From Actinomycetes bacterium (lineage in GTDB: Bacteria; Actinomycetota; Actinomycetes; S36-B12), in contig JAHECS010000014.1 in NCBI GenBank assembly GCA_024641635.1, positions 1-36,757 of the forward strand: a stretch of 36,757 nucleotides of DNA. Reading direction: 5' to 3'. The translations under genes were made by a program, and so were the position numbers. Shown here piece after piece: positions 7,415 to 27,659 of the stretch (positions are counted from its first letter, which is position 1; each line of letters begins with the position of its first letter). Below the pieces are notes generated by a model. The model had not been told where the DNA came from. It was given only the letters and a program-made list of their open reading frames with translations, and ran no database searches.

Positions 7415-7521
7415 CCGCTCCGCGCGACGCACGAACCCACGAGGGCGCTGCCTACCCGGGCTGACGGGGTCGGTGGCCTTATCGTCGAGGTGCGAGTCGC
7501 ACGAGGGACATCGGAGGCCGG

Positions 7522-10206
7522 ATGCGCAAGCACATGCGTCGGCGTCTCCGGGCCCGGCGCGATCCGGCGGATCGGGCGCCGCGACCGCCGCGTCACCCCG
7601 TGGCGTTCGCCGTCGGGATCCTGATCGTCCTCGCCATCGCTGGCGTCACCGGCGTCGCCGCCTGGTCGCTGTACTCCGACTACACCTGGCGCTCGTCGGC
7701 CCGGGACGCGGCTGCAGGAGTCGAGGAGGCGATCACCTCGTACAGCGTCCGAGACGACTCGCTTCCTCAGCCCGTGGACGCGGTCGCTTCGGCTCCGGGC
7801 CCGGACCAGGCCACCCTCGACGACCTGCCGTACGCCGACGACCTGCCGCAGGGCGTGACGCGAATCCGGGTGACCGAGGGCGGTGCACTCTCGGTCCTGA
7901 CGAGCACGGAAGCCCTCTGCTCGGGCAGGACCCTCAACATGACTGCTCCGGGGAAGGCGTCATCGGGGTCGTTTCGCTGCGGTGACGCTCTGGTGCCGCA
8001 GGCGGTCTCCGCGCTGACCGCCAGCCCGCTGGACTCCTCCGTGCTCCTGGAGTGGACGCGACCTCCCACTCCCGTCGAGGACTACTCGGTCACCGTGTCC
8101 GGTGACGACGGGGCAACGTGGGCCCCGTACGACGACGGCGTGACGTCCGTTCCGCGGGACATCGTCCGCCCCCTGGCCAACGGCCGCGAGTACCTGTTCC
8201 GGGTAACCGCCCGGAACCTCGTCGGCGAGTCCGCCCCGGTCATGACGCGCGCGTCACCGTTCACGGCGCCCGGCCCCCCCACGAACGTCCACGCCTCGGG
8301 CGGATTCGGCGCGGTCGTCTCGTGGAGCCCACCGGCCGATGATGGCGGGCGACCCGTGACGGGGTACCTCGTGACCGGCGACCCGACGGGCTCGTGCTCG
8401 GCACCGTCGACCTCCACCCGCTGCGAGGTGCCGGACCTGCCGGCCGCCCCCGGCTACACCTTCATCGTGCGTGCCCTCAACGAGGCGGGTGCCGGGACAC
8501 CGAGCCTGCCGACCCCGAACGCGGTCGCCGTGTACTCCACTCCGGGACGAGCCGTCGCCCTGGCGGCCGACCCCGGTGACCGGGTCGTCCTCCTGAGCTG
8601 GACGCCTCCCTTGCGCGATGGGAACACGGCGATCACCGACTACCGGGTGGAGTACCGGGCCGCGGGCCAGGATGCGTGGAACGAGCTCGTGGATTCGCCC
8701 TCCGCCGAGACGACCAGGACAGTGTCCGGCCTCGTGAACGGAACCGAGTACGAGTTCCGCGTCTTCGCGGTGAACGCCGTAGGCACGTCGGAGCCGCCCC
8801 TGTCGCCGGCCTTCCAGACACCGGCCACGATCCCCGGTCCCGTGCCGACGCTGGAGCTCGTCGAAGGCAATGCGTCGGCGGCGCTTTCATGGACGGCGCC
8901 CGTCGACGACGGAGAGTCCCCGGTGACCGACTATGCGATCCAGTTCCGTCCCGCTGGTGGGGCCTGGCAGAACTTCAACCATCCCGTCGGCATCGAGGTG
9001 AACCGCGACGTCACCGGCCTGGAGAACGGCACCCGCTATGCGTTCCGTGTCGCAGCCCTGAACCGGATGGGCCAGGGCCCGTGGTCCAAGCGCGCCCTGG
9101 GCACACCCGTCGGGCCGCCAGGCCCCGTGGTCGAACCCGAGTCCGTCGGCTCACTCACCGCCATCGAGCTCACCTGGAAGCCGCCCGAGAACGACGGCGG
9201 CCGCCCGATCCGCGGCTACCGCGTCGAGTACAAGCTGTCGTCCTCCGACACCTGGCTGCGCGTGCCTCGCGTCCCCAGTGACCAGACGACGGTTACCGTG
9301 GAGGACCTCGAGGGTGGAGAGGCCTACGACTTCCGCATCGTGGCAGTGACCAGGGCAGGGTTCGGTCCGTCCACCCCAGGCAGCGCGGACCGGCCCACGC
9401 TGGCCGGGGTCATCGCCGACGAGACGCCGCCCGCGCCGGAGGGGTTCACCGCCATCGCCGGCGATCGCTCCGTGACGCTGCGCTGGGAGGAGTCCCCGGC
9501 GGGACGCAAGTCCCCCATCGCGGCCTACACGGTGACCGGCGACCCGGCTGGCACGTGCACGACGAAGCGCCTGACCTGCGTCATCAGGGGCCTCACCAAT
9601 GGGCAGCGCTACACGTTCACGGTGTCCGCGGCCAACGAGAACATCATCGGACCGGAGTCCAGGACGGTCCGGGCGACTCCTCGCGTGTTCAACGCTGCCG
9701 TCGGGGGCGTCGAGTCCACCTACACGCGCGCCGGCCGCACCTATCGGGTGCACACCATCACGAGCACGTCGACCTTCACCGTCACGTCGAGCGCCCAGCC
9801 CTTCAGCGTCCTCGTCGTAGGTGGTGGGGGCGGCAGTCGCCTCCTCGCGGACGGCCGGCTCGCGGTCGGCGGCGGCGGCGGCATCATCGACGCGCGGCGG
9901 ACAACTCTCGCCGTCGGCGTGCTCAACGTCGTCGTCGGTGCCGGTGGACCTCCCGGGGCGGCGGGAGGACTGTCGTCGATGGACGGTGTCGGCGCAGCGC
10001 CGGCCGGAACCCCGGGCTCGGCGACAGCAACCGAGTTCTCACCGACGACCAGGTCCAGCATCACTGGACGTCCGACCACCTACGGCGGCACCGGCACGCT
10101 GACGAGCGGGCCAGGCGCTGACGGGCGCGGTGTCGGCGGGGGCGGCCCGGCCGCGAACAGGGGCGGGAACGGCATCGTGATCATCCGCTACGAAGTGGGC
10201 GGGTAG
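7522..10206 (+). CDS. Membrane-anchored fibronectin type III repeat protein with glycine-rich C-terminus
   Basis: This 894-residue surface or exported protein starts with a very basic N-terminus, then one hydrophobic helix (about residues 26-49). Six fibronectin type III domains follow, starting near 160, 251, 345, 441, 533 and 637; each shows the SWTPP/LxWxxP strand and the NGTEYEFRVFAVNAVG-type strand. From about 723 the chain turns into a glycine-rich region (VVGGGGGS, VGGGGGII, VVVGAGGPPG) that ends in NGIVIIRYEV, the closing motif of a glycine-rich fold seen in tail-fibre and adhesin-like proteins. The helix plus ARDAAAGVEEAITSY just after it recalls pseudopilin N-termini, but no prepilin cleavage site is visible. 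GGAGG lies 6-8 bp before the ATG. It is probably involved in adhesion or carbohydrate contact; convergent with a diguanylate cyclase. Confidence 0.88.
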   Translation: MRKHMRRRLRARRDPADRAPRPPRHPVAFAVGILIVLAIAGVTGVAAWSLYSDYTWRSSARDAAAGVEEAITSYSVRDDSLPQPVDAVASAPGPDQATLDDLPYADDLPQGVTRIRVTEGGALSVLTSTEALCSGRTLNMTAPGKASSGSFRCGDALVPQAVSALTASPLDSSVLLEWTRPPTPVEDYSVTVSGDDGATWAPYDDGVTSVPRDIVRPLANGREYLFRVTARNLVGESAPVMTRASPFTAPGPPTNVHASGGFGAVVSWSPPADDGGRPVTGYLVTGDPTGSCSAPSTSTRCEVPDLPAAPGYTFIVRALNEAGAGTPSLPTPNAVAVYSTPGRAVALAADPGDRVVLLSWTPPLRDGNTAITDYRVEYRAAGQDAWNELVDSPSAETTRTVSGLVNGTEYEFRVFAVNAVGTSEPPLSPAFQTPATIPGPVPTLELVEGNASAALSWTAPVDDGESPVTDYAIQFRPAGGAWQNFNHPVGIEVNRDVTGLENGTRYAFRVAALNRMGQGPWSKRALGTPVGPPGPVVEPESVGSLTAIELTWKPPENDGGRPIRGYRVEYKLSSSDTWLRVPRVPSDQTTVTVEDLEGGEAYDFRIVAVTRAGFGPSTPGSADRPTLAGVIADETPPAPEGFTAIAGDRSVTLRWEESPAGRKSPIAAYTVTGDPAGTCTTKRLTCVIRGLTNGQRYTFTVSAANENIIGPESRTVRATPRVFNAAVGGVESTYTRAGRTYRVHTITSTSTFTVTSSAQPFSVLVVGGGGGSRLLADGRLAVGGGGGIIDARRTTLAVGVLNVVVGAGGPPGAAGGLSSMDGVGAAPAGTPGSATATEFSPTTRSSITGRPTTYGGTGTLTSGPGADGRGVGGGGPAANRGGNGIVIIRYEVGG

Positions 10207-10253: not shown

Positions 10254-11207
10254 CTAGCGCCTTGGCCGGGACTTGGCCAGGTAGAGGGCCTTGTCCGCCT
10301 TGCGCAGGGCTTCCTCGAGGTCGTCGTCCCGCTCCCAGGCCACGACGCCTGCCGACCATCGTGCGTGGTTGGACTCGTGCAGGCGCGCGAGCAGGCTGTG
10401 CGCCGTCGCCGCATCCGTATTCGCGAGCAGCAGGATGAACTCGTCGCCGCCTATCCGCGCGAGGATGTCCGAGGAGCGAAGCATTCCCTTCCAGCTGGCC
10501 GTCACATCGATCAGCAGTCGGTCCCCTGCAAGGTGCCCGTGCGTGTCGTTGTAGCCCTTGAAGTCGTTGAGGTCGATCGCCACCACGGTGATGGGCCGCT
10601 CGGCGCGGAAGACCACCGCGCGCATGAGCTCAGCGCTCTCGCTGAGTCCCCGCCGGTTCAGCGCGCCGGTGAGCGGGTCGCGCACGGCCGCAGCGGCCAG
10701 GAGGGCGGACACCTGCGCGACCATCCAGACGAGTGCCACGACGGCAACGACGACGGTGAGCGGGTAGAAGAACGATGGCAGAAGCGGCGACAGGACCGTC
10801 ACGGCCACGAACAGCGCCAGCATCCAGACCACCTGCACCACCATCCGCACGAACGGCAGGAACTGCGCGCAGAAGACGGCCAGCAGGCACAGCCCGAAGG
10901 CGCACGCCAACTGTCCGGTGGCTGAGTCCGACACGTAGGCAACTCCGCTTACGGCGATCGCCATCACGCCGACGTATCCGTCGATCACGATCGGGCTGAC
11001 GCGCGGCAGCAGGATGAGGGCGGTGAGTGCGCCGATTCCCAGGAGGGCCGCCGCCCCATAGAGGGCGGGGACGGAGATCTGGTCACCCGAGGGCCACAGG
11101 GACAGGGCGATGCACTCCGCGGCCCCGAGGGCCATCAGCGCAGCCAGGACCCGGTACTTCGCAGCAGGCCCTAGCGCGGAGCCCTTGATCCTCACGCGTG
11201 CTGCCAC
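10254..11207 (-). CDS. Membrane diguanylate cyclase (GGDEF)
   Basis: This protein of about 317 residues would make cyclic di-GMP at the membrane. The N-terminal half holds about six transmembrane segments without a periplasmic sensor domain of any size. The GGDEF domain follows, starting at VRDPLTGALNRRGL, with the metal and substrate region DLNDFKGYNDTHGHLAGD, an intact GGDEF signature (about residue 252), and a product-inhibition I-site RSSD five residues before it. It is expected to be active and feedback-regulated. I prefer the GTG at 11207 because AGGGGAGA lies just upstream of it on the minus strand; an ATG at 11258 would add 17 residues but has no site. It faces the FN3 protein tail to tail across 47 bp. 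Confidence 0.9.
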   Translation of the reverse strand: MAARVRIKGSALGPAAKYRVLAALMALGAAECIALSLWPSGDQISVPALYGAAALLGIGALTALILLPRVSPIVIDGYVGVMAIAVSGVAYVSDSATGQLACAFGLCLLAVFCAQFLPFVRMVVQVVWMLALFVAVTVLSPLLPSFFYPLTVVVAVVALVWMVAQVSALLAAAAVRDPLTGALNRRGLSESAELMRAVVFRAERPITVVAIDLNDFKGYNDTHGHLAGDRLLIDVTASWKGMLRSSDILARIGGDEFILLLANTDAATAHSLLARLHESNHARWSAGVVAWERDDDLEEALRKADKALYLAKSRPRR

Positions 11208-11227
11208 GGATGCGTCTCCCCTTCCTG

Positions 11228-11245
11228 CGCTTGCAGCCGCAAGCG
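11228..11245. repeat. Inverted repeat before the diguanylate cyclase start
   Basis: CGCTTGC and GCAAGCG form perfect 7-bp arms around a 4-bp loop, ending about 20 bp upstream of the GTG start of the cyclase (reading the minus strand). As RNA it would fold just before the ribosome site. It may affect translation or serve as an operator. It could also simply be coding sequence if the ATG at 11258 is used. Confidence 0.4.
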
Positions 11246-11443
11246 TCGCACGGTCCATGGCGGAAGCGAACGACCCCGGCCGGGAACCGGTTGCGTGTCA
11301 CCCAGCACGACCAGGCGGGCTCCATGAGGTGAGCCACGGTCGCCCCTGATGAAGGTGTCGGACCAGCGCGGGCACTGAAGGGTGCATCTCCCGAAAGTCA
11401 TCGCTCCTGCCCCTTCCCGAATCCCGAGCCCACGACCCGGCGG

Positions 11444-12907
11444 CTAGCTGCCCAGCGCGTTGGGCGCCCTCCACACTCGCTCGAACGGCAGGCGCCAGGC
11501 GTGCGGGGCGATGAGCTGGTGGATGGCGTTCGGGCCCCACGAACCCGGCGCGTAGGTGCGGACCGGCGGCGGGGCCTCGATGAGCGGAGTCGACACCTTC
11601 CACAGGCGCTCGATGCCGTCAGCCGTGGTGAAGAGCGTTCGGTCACCGCGCATGGCGTCCAGGATGAGACGTTCGTAGGCTTCGAAGACGTCACCCTCCA
11701 GGCCGGTGTCGTGCATGGCGAACTGGAGGCTCAGCTTGTCCAGCCGCATACCCGGACCTGGACGCTTGCCGTAGAAGGACAGGGACATCTTCGCCGAGTC
11801 CGCGAGGTCGAACGTCAGATGGTCCGGGCCCTGAGCGCTGACCCCCGAGTCCGCGGGGAACATGCTCTTGGGTGGCTCGTTGAACGCGATCGACACGATC
11901 CGCTGCCCCTCGGCAAGCCGCTTCCCCGTGCGGAGGTAGAAGGGCACTCCCGCCCATCGCCAGTTGTCGATGGTGCAGCGCAGGGCGATGAAGGTCTCGG
12001 TCTCCGACTCCGGGGAGACCCCCGGGATGTCGAGGTAGCCCGTGTACTGGCCGCGCACGACGTCCGCTGGCTGGATCGGCAGCATGCTGTGGAAGACCTT
12101 GTTCTTCTCGATCGTGATGGCGGCAGGATCCAGCTCGGTCGGTGGCTCCATCGCGATGAAGGCGAGGATCTGGAACAGGTGCGTCACGACCATGTCGCGG
12201 TAGGCGCCCGTCTGCTCGTAGAACTCGGCACGAGTCTCCAGACCGAGGTCCTCGGGCACGTCGATCTGGACGTGGTCGATGAAGTTGCGGTTCCAGATCG
12301 GCTCGAACAGGCCGTTCGCGAAACGGAAGGCGAGGATGTTGAGCGCAGGCTCCTTGCCGAGGAAGTGGTCGATGCGGAAGATCTGATCCTCGTCGAAGAC
12401 CTCGTGCAGGCGCCCGTTGAGGGCCACCGAGCTCGCCAGGTCGACACCGAACGGCTTCTCCATCACGACGCGCGACCGTTCGATGAGCCCGGCCTCGGCG
12501 AGCTGCGTCACGGCCGCGACGGCGGCACGGGGTGGAACCGACAGGTAGTGAAGGCGTTGCGCAGGAGCGTCGAGCTGGGCCTCTGCGCGGGCCACGGCCT
12601 CGGCCATTGCCGCAGGGCCGGACTCGGTCGAGACATAGTCGAGCTGGCTGGCGAACGTCTCCCACGCGGCGTTGTCGAGGCCGCGGGAGTAGAACTCGTC
12701 CACGGCTCTGTGCGCGGCCTCCCGGAACTCCTCCACGCCGATCTGGTCCAGGGACACCCCGATGACGCGGATGCCCGGGATCAGTCCTGAGCTGGCGAGG
12801 TGGAACAGGCCCGGCAGCAGTTTTCGGCGGGCGAGGTCCCCGGTGGCTCCGAACAGCAGGACGACCTGCGGCTCGCCTGGTCCACTTCCGGGGTGCATCC
12901 GGCCCAT
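11444..12907 (-). CDS. zwf: Glucose-6-phosphate 1-dehydrogenase
   Basis: This 487-residue enzyme oxidises glucose 6-phosphate to 6-phosphogluconolactone, feeding NADPH and pentose phosphates. The dinucleotide-binding motif [10 protein letters not shown] is at residues 20-29, EKPFG near 149, and the active-site signature RIDHFLGKE near 177. Later conserved parts include [11 protein letters not shown]-like [13 protein letters not shown], and YLRTGKRL. No other pentose-phosphate genes (opcA, pgl, tal, gnd) adjoin it, unlike the usual actinobacterial tkt-tal-zwf-opcA cluster, so it may be a second copy. A start at the ATG three codons downstream (12898) is possible. Confidence 0.96.
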
Positions 12908-12986
12908 CGCGTCATCGTGGCACTTCCATGTTGCCCCCGGGTTACTTCGCCTGAGCTCGTGGCTCGGATTCGTTCACGTCGGCCGC

Positions 12987-24396: not shown

Positions 24397-25143
24397 ATGA
24401 CTTCCGAGCCCCTTCACTCCCCCACACCGGGCGACGTCATGCCCCCGCCATGCCGCGCATCCGCGCCAGCCGAATGCCATCATGATCAGGTGACGACGAC
24501 TGCCGAGGCGGCGGAGCGGCCTCTGATGCCATTCGGCTTCGACGACCATCCGCACCCAGCGGGGACTCACATGTGCCTGCTCTATGCCGATGACAGTGAG
24601 CGCTGGCCGGTGATCACCGAGTACGTGTCGAGCGGCCTCGCGAACCACGAGCGCGTCGGCTGTTTCGTCGATGTCGAGACACCGGAGGAATTCGTCGATC
24701 AGGTCCGAGGCGCAGACCCAGCTGATCGTGATCAATGGGGCCCCGATCAACTGCAGGTCAGCGCAGCCTCGGATGTGTACTGCCCGGACGGCTCCTTCGA
24801 CGTCGAGCGGATGCTCCAGACGCTGGCCGACGGTCACCGGGACAGCATCGCGAGTGGCTTCGCCGGGTTCCGGGTAACGGGAGAGATGACCTGGTCACGG
24901 CGCATGGGCACCCCGAGCCGTGACCTCGTGGAGTACGAGGCTCGGATCAATGTCTTGGTGCGGACGGTGCCGACGACGGCCATCTGCCAATACGATTCGC
25001 GAGCATTCGACGGGGCTACCCTCTACGACATCCTGTCGGTGCACCCGATGGTGATCGTTCGGGGCCAAGTCATGAGCAACCCGTACTACCTCGAGCCTGA
25101 GGAGTTCCTGACCCTGCGCGATCGACGGCCCCCGGGCGGATGA
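24397..25143 (+). CDS. MEDS-domain sensor protein
   Basis: This protein of about 248 residues has one MEDS (DcmR-type sensory) domain from about residue 50: HPHPAGTHMCLLYADDSERWPVITEYVSSGLANHERVGCFVD, then RVTGEMTWSRRMGTPSRDLVEYEARINVL and VRTVPTTAICQYDSRAFDGATLYDILSVHPMVI. MEDS domains occur in signalling proteins, often with kinases, and are thought to sense small molecules. There is no output domain here. Its TGA overlaps the ATG of the next gene (ATGA), so the two are translationally coupled. The start is uncertain: ATG at 24397 is used, but an ATG at 24526, just before the domain, is equally reasonable. Confidence 0.82.
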   Translation: MTSEPLHSPTPGDVMPPPCRASAPAECHHDQVTTTAEAAERPLMPFGFDDHPHPAGTHMCLLYADDSERWPVITEYVSSGLANHERVGCFVDVETPEEFVDQVRGADPADRDQWGPDQLQVSAASDVYCPDGSFDVERMLQTLADGHRDSIASGFAGFRVTGEMTWSRRMGTPSRDLVEYEARINVLVRTVPTTAICQYDSRAFDGATLYDILSVHPMVIVRGQVMSNPYYLEPEEFLTLRDRRPPGG

Positions 25144-27659
25144 GCGCGGCCGAGCCCTCGGTAGCGATGCTGGGGCGCCTGCTCGCCGCGCTTCAGGTGA
25201 TGGACTCCGTGCCAGGCGCGGCCGACCTCTTCGCATTTCTCGTCCGGACCCTGAACGACCTTCCTGGGGTCGGCGTCGTGCGCTTTGCCCCACGAGGCGA
25301 AGCAGCCGGCGCGCGGCCCGGTAGCAATACCTTCACCGTCCGGACCTCCGAACGGGACTTCGGCACGCTGATCGTCGACATCCAGGACGAGGAGTCCTTC
25401 GCGCCCTACCGGCCCTTCGTCGGAAATGTCGGCCACGTCGTCGCCAGAATCCTGGAGAACCGAGAAGTCGCCAAGGATCTGGCGGAGGCCAACACACGAC
25501 TCGGTACGTACATCGGTTCCTTGGAAGCCGATGCGGTCCAACGTCGGATCGACGCCGAGGAGCACGGCCAGCGCCTTCGTCTCGTGCTGGAGAGTGCGGG
25601 GCTCGGGATGTGGGACTGGAACATGCAGACCGGTGCGGCCGTGGTGGACGAGCGGTGGGCCGCCATCGTTGGGTACTCCCTGGCCGAATTGGAGCCGGTG
25701 ACGGAGGACACCTGGCTCCAGATGACGCATCCCGACGACATTGAGAGCGACAGGAAGGCAGGCGAGGAGCACGCCGCCGGCCGTACCCCCATCTTCGACG
25801 TCGAGATTCGGCTGCGTCACCGCAGCGGCCACTGGGTGTGGTGCCGTGACCGCGGACGGATCGTGCAGTGGACGGATGACGGTCGCCCGTTTCGGATGAC
25901 AGGCACGCTGGAGGACGTCACCGCCCACGTGGAGGCGCGTCAACGACTTGAGCGCAGCGAGATGCTGCTGAGCGAGGCGCAGCGGATTGCTCATGTGGGG
26001 GCTTGGCGGTTCGACCTGGCAACGGGGGCTGTCACGTGGTCGCAGGAGCTCTTCGACGCGTTCGGCCTGGACCCGCTTGGTGCTGTGCCGGGATTCCCGG
26101 AGCAGGAGGCGTTGTTCACGCCGGAGAGCTGGCTGGCGCTCAGCTCTGCGGTGCTCGCGGCCCGGACAGACGGGGTTCCCTACGATGTGGAGCTCCAGAC
26201 AGTCCGGACCGACGGCACCCACGGGTGGATCCATGCGCGTGGGCAGGCACGCCGGGATGCCCTGGGGTCGGTTGTCGAGCTCCATGGCATGACGTTGGAC
26301 ATCACCGAGCTCAAGGCCTCGACCGATGTGCTTCGGGAGATGGCGACCCATGACTCGTTGACAGGGCTGGCCAACCGGGCGGCGTTGATGGACGAGATCT
26401 CCCGTTCGCTGAGCGCGGGACGCCGTTCGGGGCGGTCGACGGCCGTCCTGATGATTGACCTCGATCGGTTCAAGGGACTGAATGATGCCCTCGGGCATGC
26501 CGTCGGTGACGACGTGCTGGTCGCCGCGGCGGCCCGCATCCTGAGGGTGGTGCGCACGTCTGACTTGGTGGCCCGCCTGGGCGGGGACGAGTTCGTGATC
26601 GTCATGCGCGACCTGCAGGACCCTGAGGAGGCGGTGGGGGCGGCCACCCGCATCGTCCAGGCTTTTCGAGAGCAGTTCAACCCTGGCGGAGCGGAGATGT
26701 ACGCGACCGCGAGTGTCGGGCTGGCGATAGCGACAGATGACGATTCCGCCGGTGATGTCCTGCGTGCGGCGGACACCGCGATGTATGCCGCCAAGGAGCA
26801 GGGTCGGGACCGGGTGTCGATCTTCAACGAGGACATGCGCGAGAAGGTGGCCACCCGCTTGGCCGTGGAAACCGATCTGCGGCACGCCCTGGCCCGAGAC
26901 CAGCTCGCGGTCTGGTACCAGCCCGAGGTCGACCTCAAGACGGGTTCCGTCGTCGCGGTCGAGGCCCTGCTGCGCTGGATCCGCCCAGACGGCACCGTGT
27001 GGTGCGCTGATCGGTTCATCAAGGTCGCGGAGGACACCGGGATGATCCTGGATATCGGCGACTGGGTCCTGCGGCAGGCGTGCGCGCAGGCAGCGGCCTG
27101 GGGCGCGGACCGCCCGGGACGGCCGATCACGGTGAGAGTCAACCTCTCCACGCTGCAGCTGGCCGAGAGCGGACTGCTCGACGCCGTCGATGACGCCCTT
27201 GCGGCGAGCGGCGTGGACCCAGCACTGCTGTGCATCGAGATCACCGAGACCTCGATGCTTCAGGAGACCGCCAATGCCCGCGAGAACCTGGCCGGTCTCC
27301 ACTCGCGCGGCATCTCCCTGGCCATCGACGACTTCGGGACCGGCTACGGCTCGCTGACCTACCTCAACCGATACCCCATCGACGTCATCAAGATCGATCG
27401 CTCGTTCATTACCGACACCACCGACCCGGACCACGATCACCGGCTCGTCGCCGGGATCGTTGCCCTCGCGACGGCACTCGGCATCACCGTCACCGCCGAA
27501 GGCGTCGAACACACCGACCAGGCAGCCCACCTGCTCCACATGGGCTGCCCAACCGCCCAGGGATGGCTCTACTCCGAGGCCCTCCCCGCCGACCAGATCA
27601 CCCTCCTTCTGGATCACATCTACCCGGCGCGGGCGGCGATTGTCACGGACTATCCCTGA
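25140..27659 (+). CDS. GAF-like/PAS/PAS/GGDEF/EAL cyclic-di-GMP protein
   Basis: This 839-residue cytoplasmic protein combines sensing and c-di-GMP turnover. Residues 1-115 look GAF-like, PAS domains lie at about 142-270 and 275-395, GGDEF at about 403-565 and EAL at about 580-832. The GGDEF signature is intact near 481 with an I-site RTSD five residues before it. The EAL domain keeps its key residues: EALLRW, RVNLS, EITET, DDFGTGYGSL, KIDRSF, AEGVE and QGWLYS. Both activities are therefore possible, and which one dominates cannot be read from sequence. Its ATG overlaps the stop of the MEDS gene, so the MEDS protein is a likely partner or input. Confidence 0.93.
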   Translation: MSAAEPSVAMLGRLLAALQVMDSVPGAADLFAFLVRTLNDLPGVGVVRFAPRGEAAGARPGSNTFTVRTSERDFGTLIVDIQDEESFAPYRPFVGNVGHVVARILENREVAKDLAEANTRLGTYIGSLEADAVQRRIDAEEHGQRLRLVLESAGLGMWDWNMQTGAAVVDERWAAIVGYSLAELEPVTEDTWLQMTHPDDIESDRKAGEEHAAGRTPIFDVEIRLRHRSGHWVWCRDRGRIVQWTDDGRPFRMTGTLEDVTAHVEARQRLERSEMLLSEAQRIAHVGAWRFDLATGAVTWSQELFDAFGLDPLGAVPGFPEQEALFTPESWLALSSAVLAARTDGVPYDVELQTVRTDGTHGWIHARGQARRDALGSVVELHGMTLDITELKASTDVLREMATHDSLTGLANRAALMDEISRSLSAGRRSGRSTAVLMIDLDRFKGLNDALGHAVGDDVLVAAAARILRVVRTSDLVARLGGDEFVIVMRDLQDPEEAVGAATRIVQAFREQFNPGGAEMYATASVGLAIATDDDSAGDVLRAADTAMYAAKEQGRDRVSIFNEDMREKVATRLAVETDLRHALARDQLAVWYQPEVDLKTGSVVAVEALLRWIRPDGTVWCADRFIKVAEDTGMILDIGDWVLRQACAQAAAWGADRPGRPITVRVNLSTLQLAESGLLDAVDDALAASGVDPALLCIEITETSMLQETANARENLAGLHSRGISLAIDDFGTGYGSLTYLNRYPIDVIKIDRSFITDTTDPDHDHRLVAGIVALATALGITVTAEGVEHTDQAAHLLHMGCPTAQGWLYSEALPADQITLLLDHIYPARAAIVTDYP

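Follow-up and report, generated by a model that had tools for sequence, protein, structure and literature searches.

MEDS domains are described, in extracts of PMC8784404 and PMC11507031, as sensors of simple hydrocarbon derivatives, and an extract of PMC5847659 lists MEDS as an inactivated KaiC-like domain. The available part of PMC8784404 presents EtnR2/EtnR1 of ethene-oxidising mycobacteria and Nocardioides as a regulator pair, with EtnR1 belonging to the alkene monooxygenase cluster. We find the EtnR2 and EtnR1 genes of M. chubuense to be 10 bp apart. MEDS is also carried in one chain with the output, as in a regulator of M. crimeensis and the kinase MA2082 (extracts of PMC11507031 and PMC11784639), and an extract of PMC1592074 names it among the sensory domains separated by a signalling helix from kinases, EAL, HD-GYP and diguanylate cyclases. 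Here we analyse a stand-alone MEDS gene that overlaps the gene for a cyclic di-GMP (c-di-GMP) enzyme with GGDEF and EAL domains. The two lie in a stretch of 36,757 nucleotides (the window; contig JAHECS010000014.1 of the Actinomycetes bacterium assembly GCA_024641635.1). Pairs of a stand-alone MEDS protein with an output protein are known from EtnR2/EtnR1, where the output is DNA-binding; what is new is the c-di-GMP enzyme as partner.

The enzyme begins with a domain of about 129 residues (the N-domain) that recurs in other proteins encoded directly behind MEDS genes. On balance we favour the interpretation that the pair is a split sensor-enzyme, which would have arisen by the joining of a cassette of MEDS and N-domain to a resident PAS/GGDEF/EAL enzyme; its docking, ligand and effect are what we infer.

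The MEDS gene and the enzyme gene that it overlaps

The features of the pair are as follows.

24397..25143, + strand: stand-alone MEDS gene, 248 amino acids from the first ATG (open reading frame; PF14417, E 2e-40)
24565..25047, + strand: MEDS domain (PF14417 profile search of the genome, 139.9 bits)
25140..25143, + strand: ATGA overlap of the MEDS stop and the enzyme start (sequence)
25140..27659, + strand: N-domain/PAS/PAS/GGDEF/EAL protein, 839 amino acids (open reading frame, Pfam, motifs)
25140..25526, + strand: N-domain, residues ~1-129, GAF-like predicted fold, common to MEDS-adjacent kinases (alignment A3, model, structure alignment, profile matches)
25641..25907, + strand: first PAS domain, residues 168-256 (best PAS_3 stretch)
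25977..26309, + strand: second PAS region (second PAS_3 stretch; limits approximate, estimated)
26343..26813, + strand: GGDEF domain with GGDEF and RxxD motifs (Pfam, motifs)
26874..27578, + strand: EAL domain, residues 579-813, with signature motifs (Pfam, motifs)

The MEDS protein matches PF14417 over residues 57-217 (E 2e-40; 138.7 bits against a curated cut-off of 29.8; profile positions 1-161 of 161), and no further Pfam family is found in it at E <= 0.01, in agreement with the original prediction of a sensory domain without an output. The start of the protein is uncertain, four in-frame candidates being present ahead of the domain (ATG 24397, ATG 24440, GTG 24491 and ATG 24527). At the other end the predicted overlap of 4 bp is read directly in the sequence, where the enzyme ATG at 25140-25142 shares the ATGA at 25140-25143 with the MEDS TGA at 25141-25143. 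This overlap suggests that the two genes are probably translationally coupled, and their products may consequently be made in a fixed ratio. MEDS occurs once in the 3.06-Mb assembly (E <= 0.001; assembly 96.88% complete). A structure model of the protein was unusable, with a predicted local distance difference test (pLDDT) score of 45.9, and a two-sequence MEDS profile (A2) found no match among PDB sequences.

On the enzyme Pfam places two PAS_3 stretches, GGDEF (E 2.7e-46) and EAL (E 5.5e-71), with no match to a helix-turn-helix (HTH), HisKA or HATPase family at E <= 0.01. The motifs RTSD (RxxD) at residue 472, GGDEF at 481, EALLRW at 608, ITET at 701, DDFGTGYGSL at 730, IKIDRSF at 750 and AEGVE at 786 are what we take to be the catalytic and I-site signatures of GGDEF and EAL domains. 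As all were located in the 839-residue protein, the earlier statement that both active sites and the I-site are intact is borne out, and the enzyme probably makes or breaks c-di-GMP. The host assembly holds 26 GGDEF matches and so has a rich c-di-GMP system.

The N-domain and the company of MEDS genes

A profile of the N-domain (A3) gave nine matches among 6,892 open reading frames of the fetched loci, and all nine lie directly behind a MEDS gene; none was found inside the fused MEDS proteins of these loci. Seven of the nine proteins are histidine kinases (L003, L098, L101, L103, L104, L106 and L260), five of which have a receiver domain. L113, which is PAS-rich, is truncated where its contig ends, and the window protein, with its GGDEF-EAL output, is alone among the nine in having a c-di-GMP output. 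The conserved element is an N-domain partner behind MEDS, mostly with a kinase output. These nine placements, together with the like layout of EtnR2/EtnR1, support the proposal that the MEDS protein is a separate input subunit, and the seven kinases are in keeping with the original prediction that kinases are the usual company of MEDS. One of these partner kinases, L260 (838-2724, + strand), consists of N-domain, PAS and HisKA/HATPase with a C-terminal hemerythrin domain.

Searches of genomes not chosen for MEDS found the N-domain in 1/396 genomes of the window's phylum and 2/385 of the class of L003's genome (with a two-sequence profile and no more than 10 candidates scored in each genome, so that misses are possible), and all three matches (window, G561 and G568) again sit behind MEDS. 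N-domain relatives were found neither among PDB sequences nor in plasmid records. Over seven pairs the identities of MEDS and N-domain correlate with r 0.81, a value reached by only one of 5,040 relabellings, the true one; this covariation, a sequence property and no measure of contact, fits joint inheritance. An eight-pair correlation of r 0.87 (first 6,000 ordered permutations) is not relied on.

These results bear on an alternative which we think rather unlikely, namely that MEDS and enzyme are co-expressed and answer related signals without touching each other, MEDS acting elsewhere, for example as an RsbA-like regulator or on another partner. The sole NCBIfam relation of the MEDS protein at E <= 0.01 is indeed RsbA_anti_sig, although at 61.7 bits it is well under the 210-bit cut-off and the protein does not qualify as RsbA-type, and a partner of the window kind is absent beside many of the phylum's stand-alone MEDS genes. 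Co-expression alone, however, does not readily account for nine N-domain proteins out of nine behind MEDS or for the covariation of the two sequences, and a common partner domain ahead of differing outputs is hard to explain without contact.

As to its fold, a model of residues 1-130, built from a two-sequence alignment (pLDDT 78.9), has two helices, three strands and a long helix. Foldseek with this model returned nothing at E <= 0.001, the best matches being DosP (E 0.012) and then the GAF domain of KdpD (E 0.029). A second structure aligner superposed the model on the KdpD GAF domain (4y2f) with Z 10.4 and a root-mean-square deviation of 2.7 over 106 residues, and GAF-containing entries, including phytochromes, make up most of the structure-alignment matches listed. 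The Pfam GAF family has no match in six N-domain relatives even at E <= 1 (L003, L098, L101, L103, L104 and L106). We take the N-domain to be a short, GAF-like domain, as modelled, that Pfam misses; the earlier label "GAF-like" thus holds for the predicted fold, which aligns best to GAF domains, and not for Pfam, where GAF has no match in the window enzyme at E <= 0.01. A single family comprising the N-domain, the N-terminus of EtnR1 and that of a third, Caballeronia-type partner was considered and is not supported (hhalign probabilities 12%, 0.6% and 0.9%), although the first helices of the three are alike by eye.

The wider company of MEDS was surveyed in 166 genomes of the window's order (10 with a match), 296 of its phylum (80 with a match, 76 over the cut-off), 160 of the order of L003's genome (9 and 2) and 398 of the phylum of that genome (32 and 17). 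The flanks of 131 MEDS places were fetched (10 + 120 + 1), several neighbourhoods being read in part, and 12 of 31 plasmid records with MEDS were examined, two being M. chubuense plasmids. In all ten MEDS loci of the window's order (L021-L030) the gene behind MEDS encodes an N-terminal input region and a PucR-type output, with the 4-bp overlap in seven of them; the PucR HTH is confirmed by Pfam in L022 and L030, the two that were sent, and in the others it rests on phmmer similarity to the C-terminus of EtnR1. The arrangement is not universal among MEDS genes: in L258, L139 and L033 an EtnR1-like protein is found upstream of MEDS, divergent from it or distant. The last of these (pMYCCH.01) is a second MEDS copy of M. 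chubuense NBB4, with the EtnR1-like gene ~2.4 kb downstream and not directly behind.

The original prediction had suggested looking for conserved adjacency of MEDS and GGDEF-EAL genes. In a scan of 136 loci the window's MEDS gene is the only one of 51 stand-alone MEDS rows (four antisense artefacts and L216, really fused, are counted among them) with a GGDEF or EAL open reading frame directly beside it, so that such adjacency is not conserved in this sample. Other arrangements were considered as the same pair and rejected. In L100 a GGDEF-EAL frame lies ~230 nucleotides behind the gene of a MEDS protein whose tail is LuxR-like (HTH by eye) and in L029 a GGDEF frame lies 2.8 kb downstream, both being other architectures. 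Outside the 136 loci, L253 (CP114560.1, a Candidatus Manganitrophus plasmid) has a receiver-GAF-GGDEF-EAL gene directly ahead of a MEDS-HisKA gene, a different order and architecture. In L097 and L099 the nearby signalling gene is by eye a histidine-kinase/receiver protein. L199 and L206 come from two genomes of the same genus, and in them a frame with GGDEF alone lies 335 and 327 nucleotides upstream of a stand-alone MEDS with another frame between; the row there, all on one strand, reads GGDEF, a small SpoVG-like frame (by eye), MEDS and a NarL-like response regulator (by eye).

MEDS does meet c-di-GMP domains within single chains. All ten such proteins sent to Pfam carry MEDS with GGDEF and/or EAL (L108, L109, L111, L112, L133, L191, L195, L200, L213 and L216, the MEDS of L216 scoring 29.3 bits, just below the 29.8 cut-off), and they come from genomes of two phyla. 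In the MEDS tree nine of the ten rows labelled fused share a 21-row clade, L133 lies in a second, and none is in the window's set; these ten rows include L211 (EAL-MEDS), which is outside the Pfam set, and lack L216, which is labelled otherwise. Among the literature matches listed there is no paper on a gene pair of MEDS with GGDEF-EAL and, as far as the extract of PMC1592074 goes, nothing on such fusions beyond its general remark. The earlier statement that no MEDS/GGDEF-EAL pair was known agrees with the literature matches listed as regards the gene pair and has to be qualified by the fusions, ten out of ten.

Because these fusions lack the N-domain, MEDS can reach c-di-GMP outputs without it. 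They also bear on the possibility that the ligand is sensed by the N-domain, MEDS being an accessory, such as a ligand carrier, a stabiliser or a regulator of translation of the second gene. The GAF-like predicted fold argues for this, GAF domains commonly binding small molecules; yet the modelled domain is short (130 residues, three strands), with in our judgement little room for a pocket, and the fusions indicate that MEDS can be the input alone. We consider such a division of roles improbable.

Origin and possible working of the pair

In a tree of MEDS sequences (a quick method with no bootstrap; RsbA-like rows were trimmed from 34 to 8, and four antisense MEDS-like rows on the opposite strand, L027, L029, L098 and L101, were kept and ignored in the reading) the window pairs with L003, from a Rhodospirillaceae assembly, with a Shimodaira-Hasegawa-like approximate likelihood ratio (SH-aLRT) support of 98. 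The two lie within a nine-row set (SH-aLRT 91), seven rows of which have an N-domain partner, L097 and L099 being those without. In BLAST the match of the N-domain to the L003 kinase begins at residue 1, with 39% identity in alignment A1, and both MEDS and N-domain are nearest to kinase pairs of Pseudomonadota.

The body of the enzyme has its relatives in the window's own order, in genomes G011 (66% identity over residues 270-830), G113 (56%, 144-830) and G112 (52%, 133-829); apart from its own locus, the matches listed all start at residue 133 or beyond, and the best match in plasmid records is 37%. Eleven fetched loci of enzyme homologues gave no N-domain or MEDS match at E <= 0.01, with L233 and L242 too short at contig ends to judge MEDS and L233 also too short for the extreme N-terminus. 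An N-domain match in L236 (E 0.010) was weak; as it lies where that homologue aligns with the enzyme body, it was dismissed as chance. Because the kin of the enzyme body are in its own order while those of MEDS and N-domain are Pseudomonadota kinase pairs, the simplest reading is that the window pair is a natural chimera, in which an input cassette of Pseudomonadota type appears to have been joined to a c-di-GMP enzyme resident in the order; we infer the direction and time of this event from sequence relationships.

The GC content of third codon positions (GC3) is lowest in the MEDS gene (0.68), followed by 0.79 in the N-domain, 0.83-0.85 in the enzyme body and 0.75-0.89 in the neighbours. MEDS is present in two of the 14 genomes of the genus and the window type in one, and GalT was found in only two other genomes of the 14. 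The low GC3 of MEDS and the rarity of the arrangement, seen in a single genome (1/14 of the genus, with the N-domain in 1/396 of the phylum), would be expected if the cassette had recently landed by chance before the resident enzyme and had no regulatory role. Against this, neither reading frame is interrupted, the genes overlap exactly and no signature motif of either set is missing; we regard a non-functional chimera as very improbable.

We prefer, with some reserve, to view the pair as a split sensor-enzyme. The small MEDS protein would be a detachable input subunit, which probably binds a small organic ligand and would dock on the GAF-like N-domain of its partner. The resulting change may be relayed by way of the long helix and both PAS domains to GGDEF and EAL, where synthesis or breakdown of c-di-GMP would be altered and the balance of the enzyme shifted. 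The same type of cassette would drive histidine kinases in Pseudomonadota and would here have been joined to the resident c-di-GMP enzyme. More tentatively, and as a view we would sooner doubt than adopt, stand-alone MEDS proteins in general may be plug-in input subunits for a short GAF-like docking domain, the cassette having moved among kinase, DNA-binding and c-di-GMP outputs; the window would then hold a transplant onto a resident enzyme, a two-protein allosteric c-di-GMP sensor of a small organic compound.

Several observations weigh against the split sensor-enzyme. The N-domain fold rests on a two-sequence model with a best Foldseek E of 0.012, and profile comparison gives no support to a kinship of the N-domain with the N-terminal regions of EtnR1 and the third type of partner. 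The figure of nine out of nine is mostly conditional, the loci behind that count having been chosen mostly for holding MEDS. In the wider phylum such an adjoining partner is lacking beside most stand-alone MEDS genes, and even close MEDS relatives (L097 and L099) occur without an N-domain partner. No second pair of a MEDS gene with an N-domain-GGDEF-EAL gene was found in the loci examined, and the MEDS-GGDEF/EAL fusions belong to other MEDS clades and do without the N-domain. Three of the six BLAST alignments to homologues in the order start inside the N-domain (residues 88, 91 and 110), and because of these the border between old and new is not sharp. The GC3 gap is modest and the MEDS gene short. 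Foreign-looking genes, judged by nearest sequences, are moreover not special to the pair, the glucose-6-phosphate dehydrogenase of the window being nearest to Pseudomonadota plasmid records.

If MEDS does work through the docking domain, MEDS ligands could be followed with the window pair by an enzyme assay, as formation or cleavage of c-di-GMP, and domains could be exchanged cleanly between the kinase and GGDEF-EAL forms. The c-di-GMP enzyme would in that case also be one that takes its input from a separate, probably translationally linked protein.

Within ~10 kb of the pair Pfam identifies galactokinase, GalT, LacI, AraA, aldolase II and FGGY kinase on one side, and RibD_C, DUF4386, zinc-dehydrogenase, TetR and luciferase-like genes on the other; no alkene or epoxide gene cluster is present among these Pfam-identified genes. 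AraA has its nearest plasmid records in Nonomuraea and Streptomyces (72%). Elsewhere in the window are the glucose-6-phosphate dehydrogenase gene (11447-12973, - strand; nearest plasmid records Caballeronia and Rhizobium, 77%), perhaps also acquired, a second GGDEF protein (10257-11297, - strand; 347-residue open frame) and a 913-residue open frame with six fibronectin type III stretches (7465-10203, + strand).

Comparison with known systems

EtnR2/EtnR1 resembles the window pair in that a stand-alone MEDS immediately precedes an output protein whose N-terminal part is an input region. The two differ in output, EtnR1 ending in a PucR-type HTH (HTH_30) and the window partner in GGDEF-EAL, and in setting, EtnR1 lying, according to the extract of its source, in an alkene monooxygenase cluster and the window pair beside sugar genes; the homology of the window N-domain with the EtnR1 N-terminus is not significant. 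The Pseudomonadota pairs of MEDS and N-domain-kinase, of which our literature search found no description, are alike in having the N-domain directly behind MEDS and in belonging to the window's MEDS clade (except L106; L260 is outside the tree), and are unlike in their histidine kinase output as against GGDEF-EAL. Single-chain MEDS-GGDEF/EAL proteins also tie MEDS to c-di-GMP domains, but they are fused, belong to other clades and lack the N-domain.

DosP, the best Foldseek match of the N-domain (E 0.012), has the same output domains as the window enzyme. We know of no separate MEDS subunit for it, and the window enzyme differs from DosP and further PAS/GAF-GGDEF-EAL enzymes in that its GAF-like domain is N-terminal. 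In DcmR, MEDS and output are in a single chain. Methanogen MEDS-histidine kinases and DcmR-like regulators, as far as the extracts of their sources go, share with the window pair the use of MEDS as an input domain, whereas in the M. crimeensis regulator and MA2082, as these extracts present them, MEDS is fused to the output and in the window it is a separate gene.

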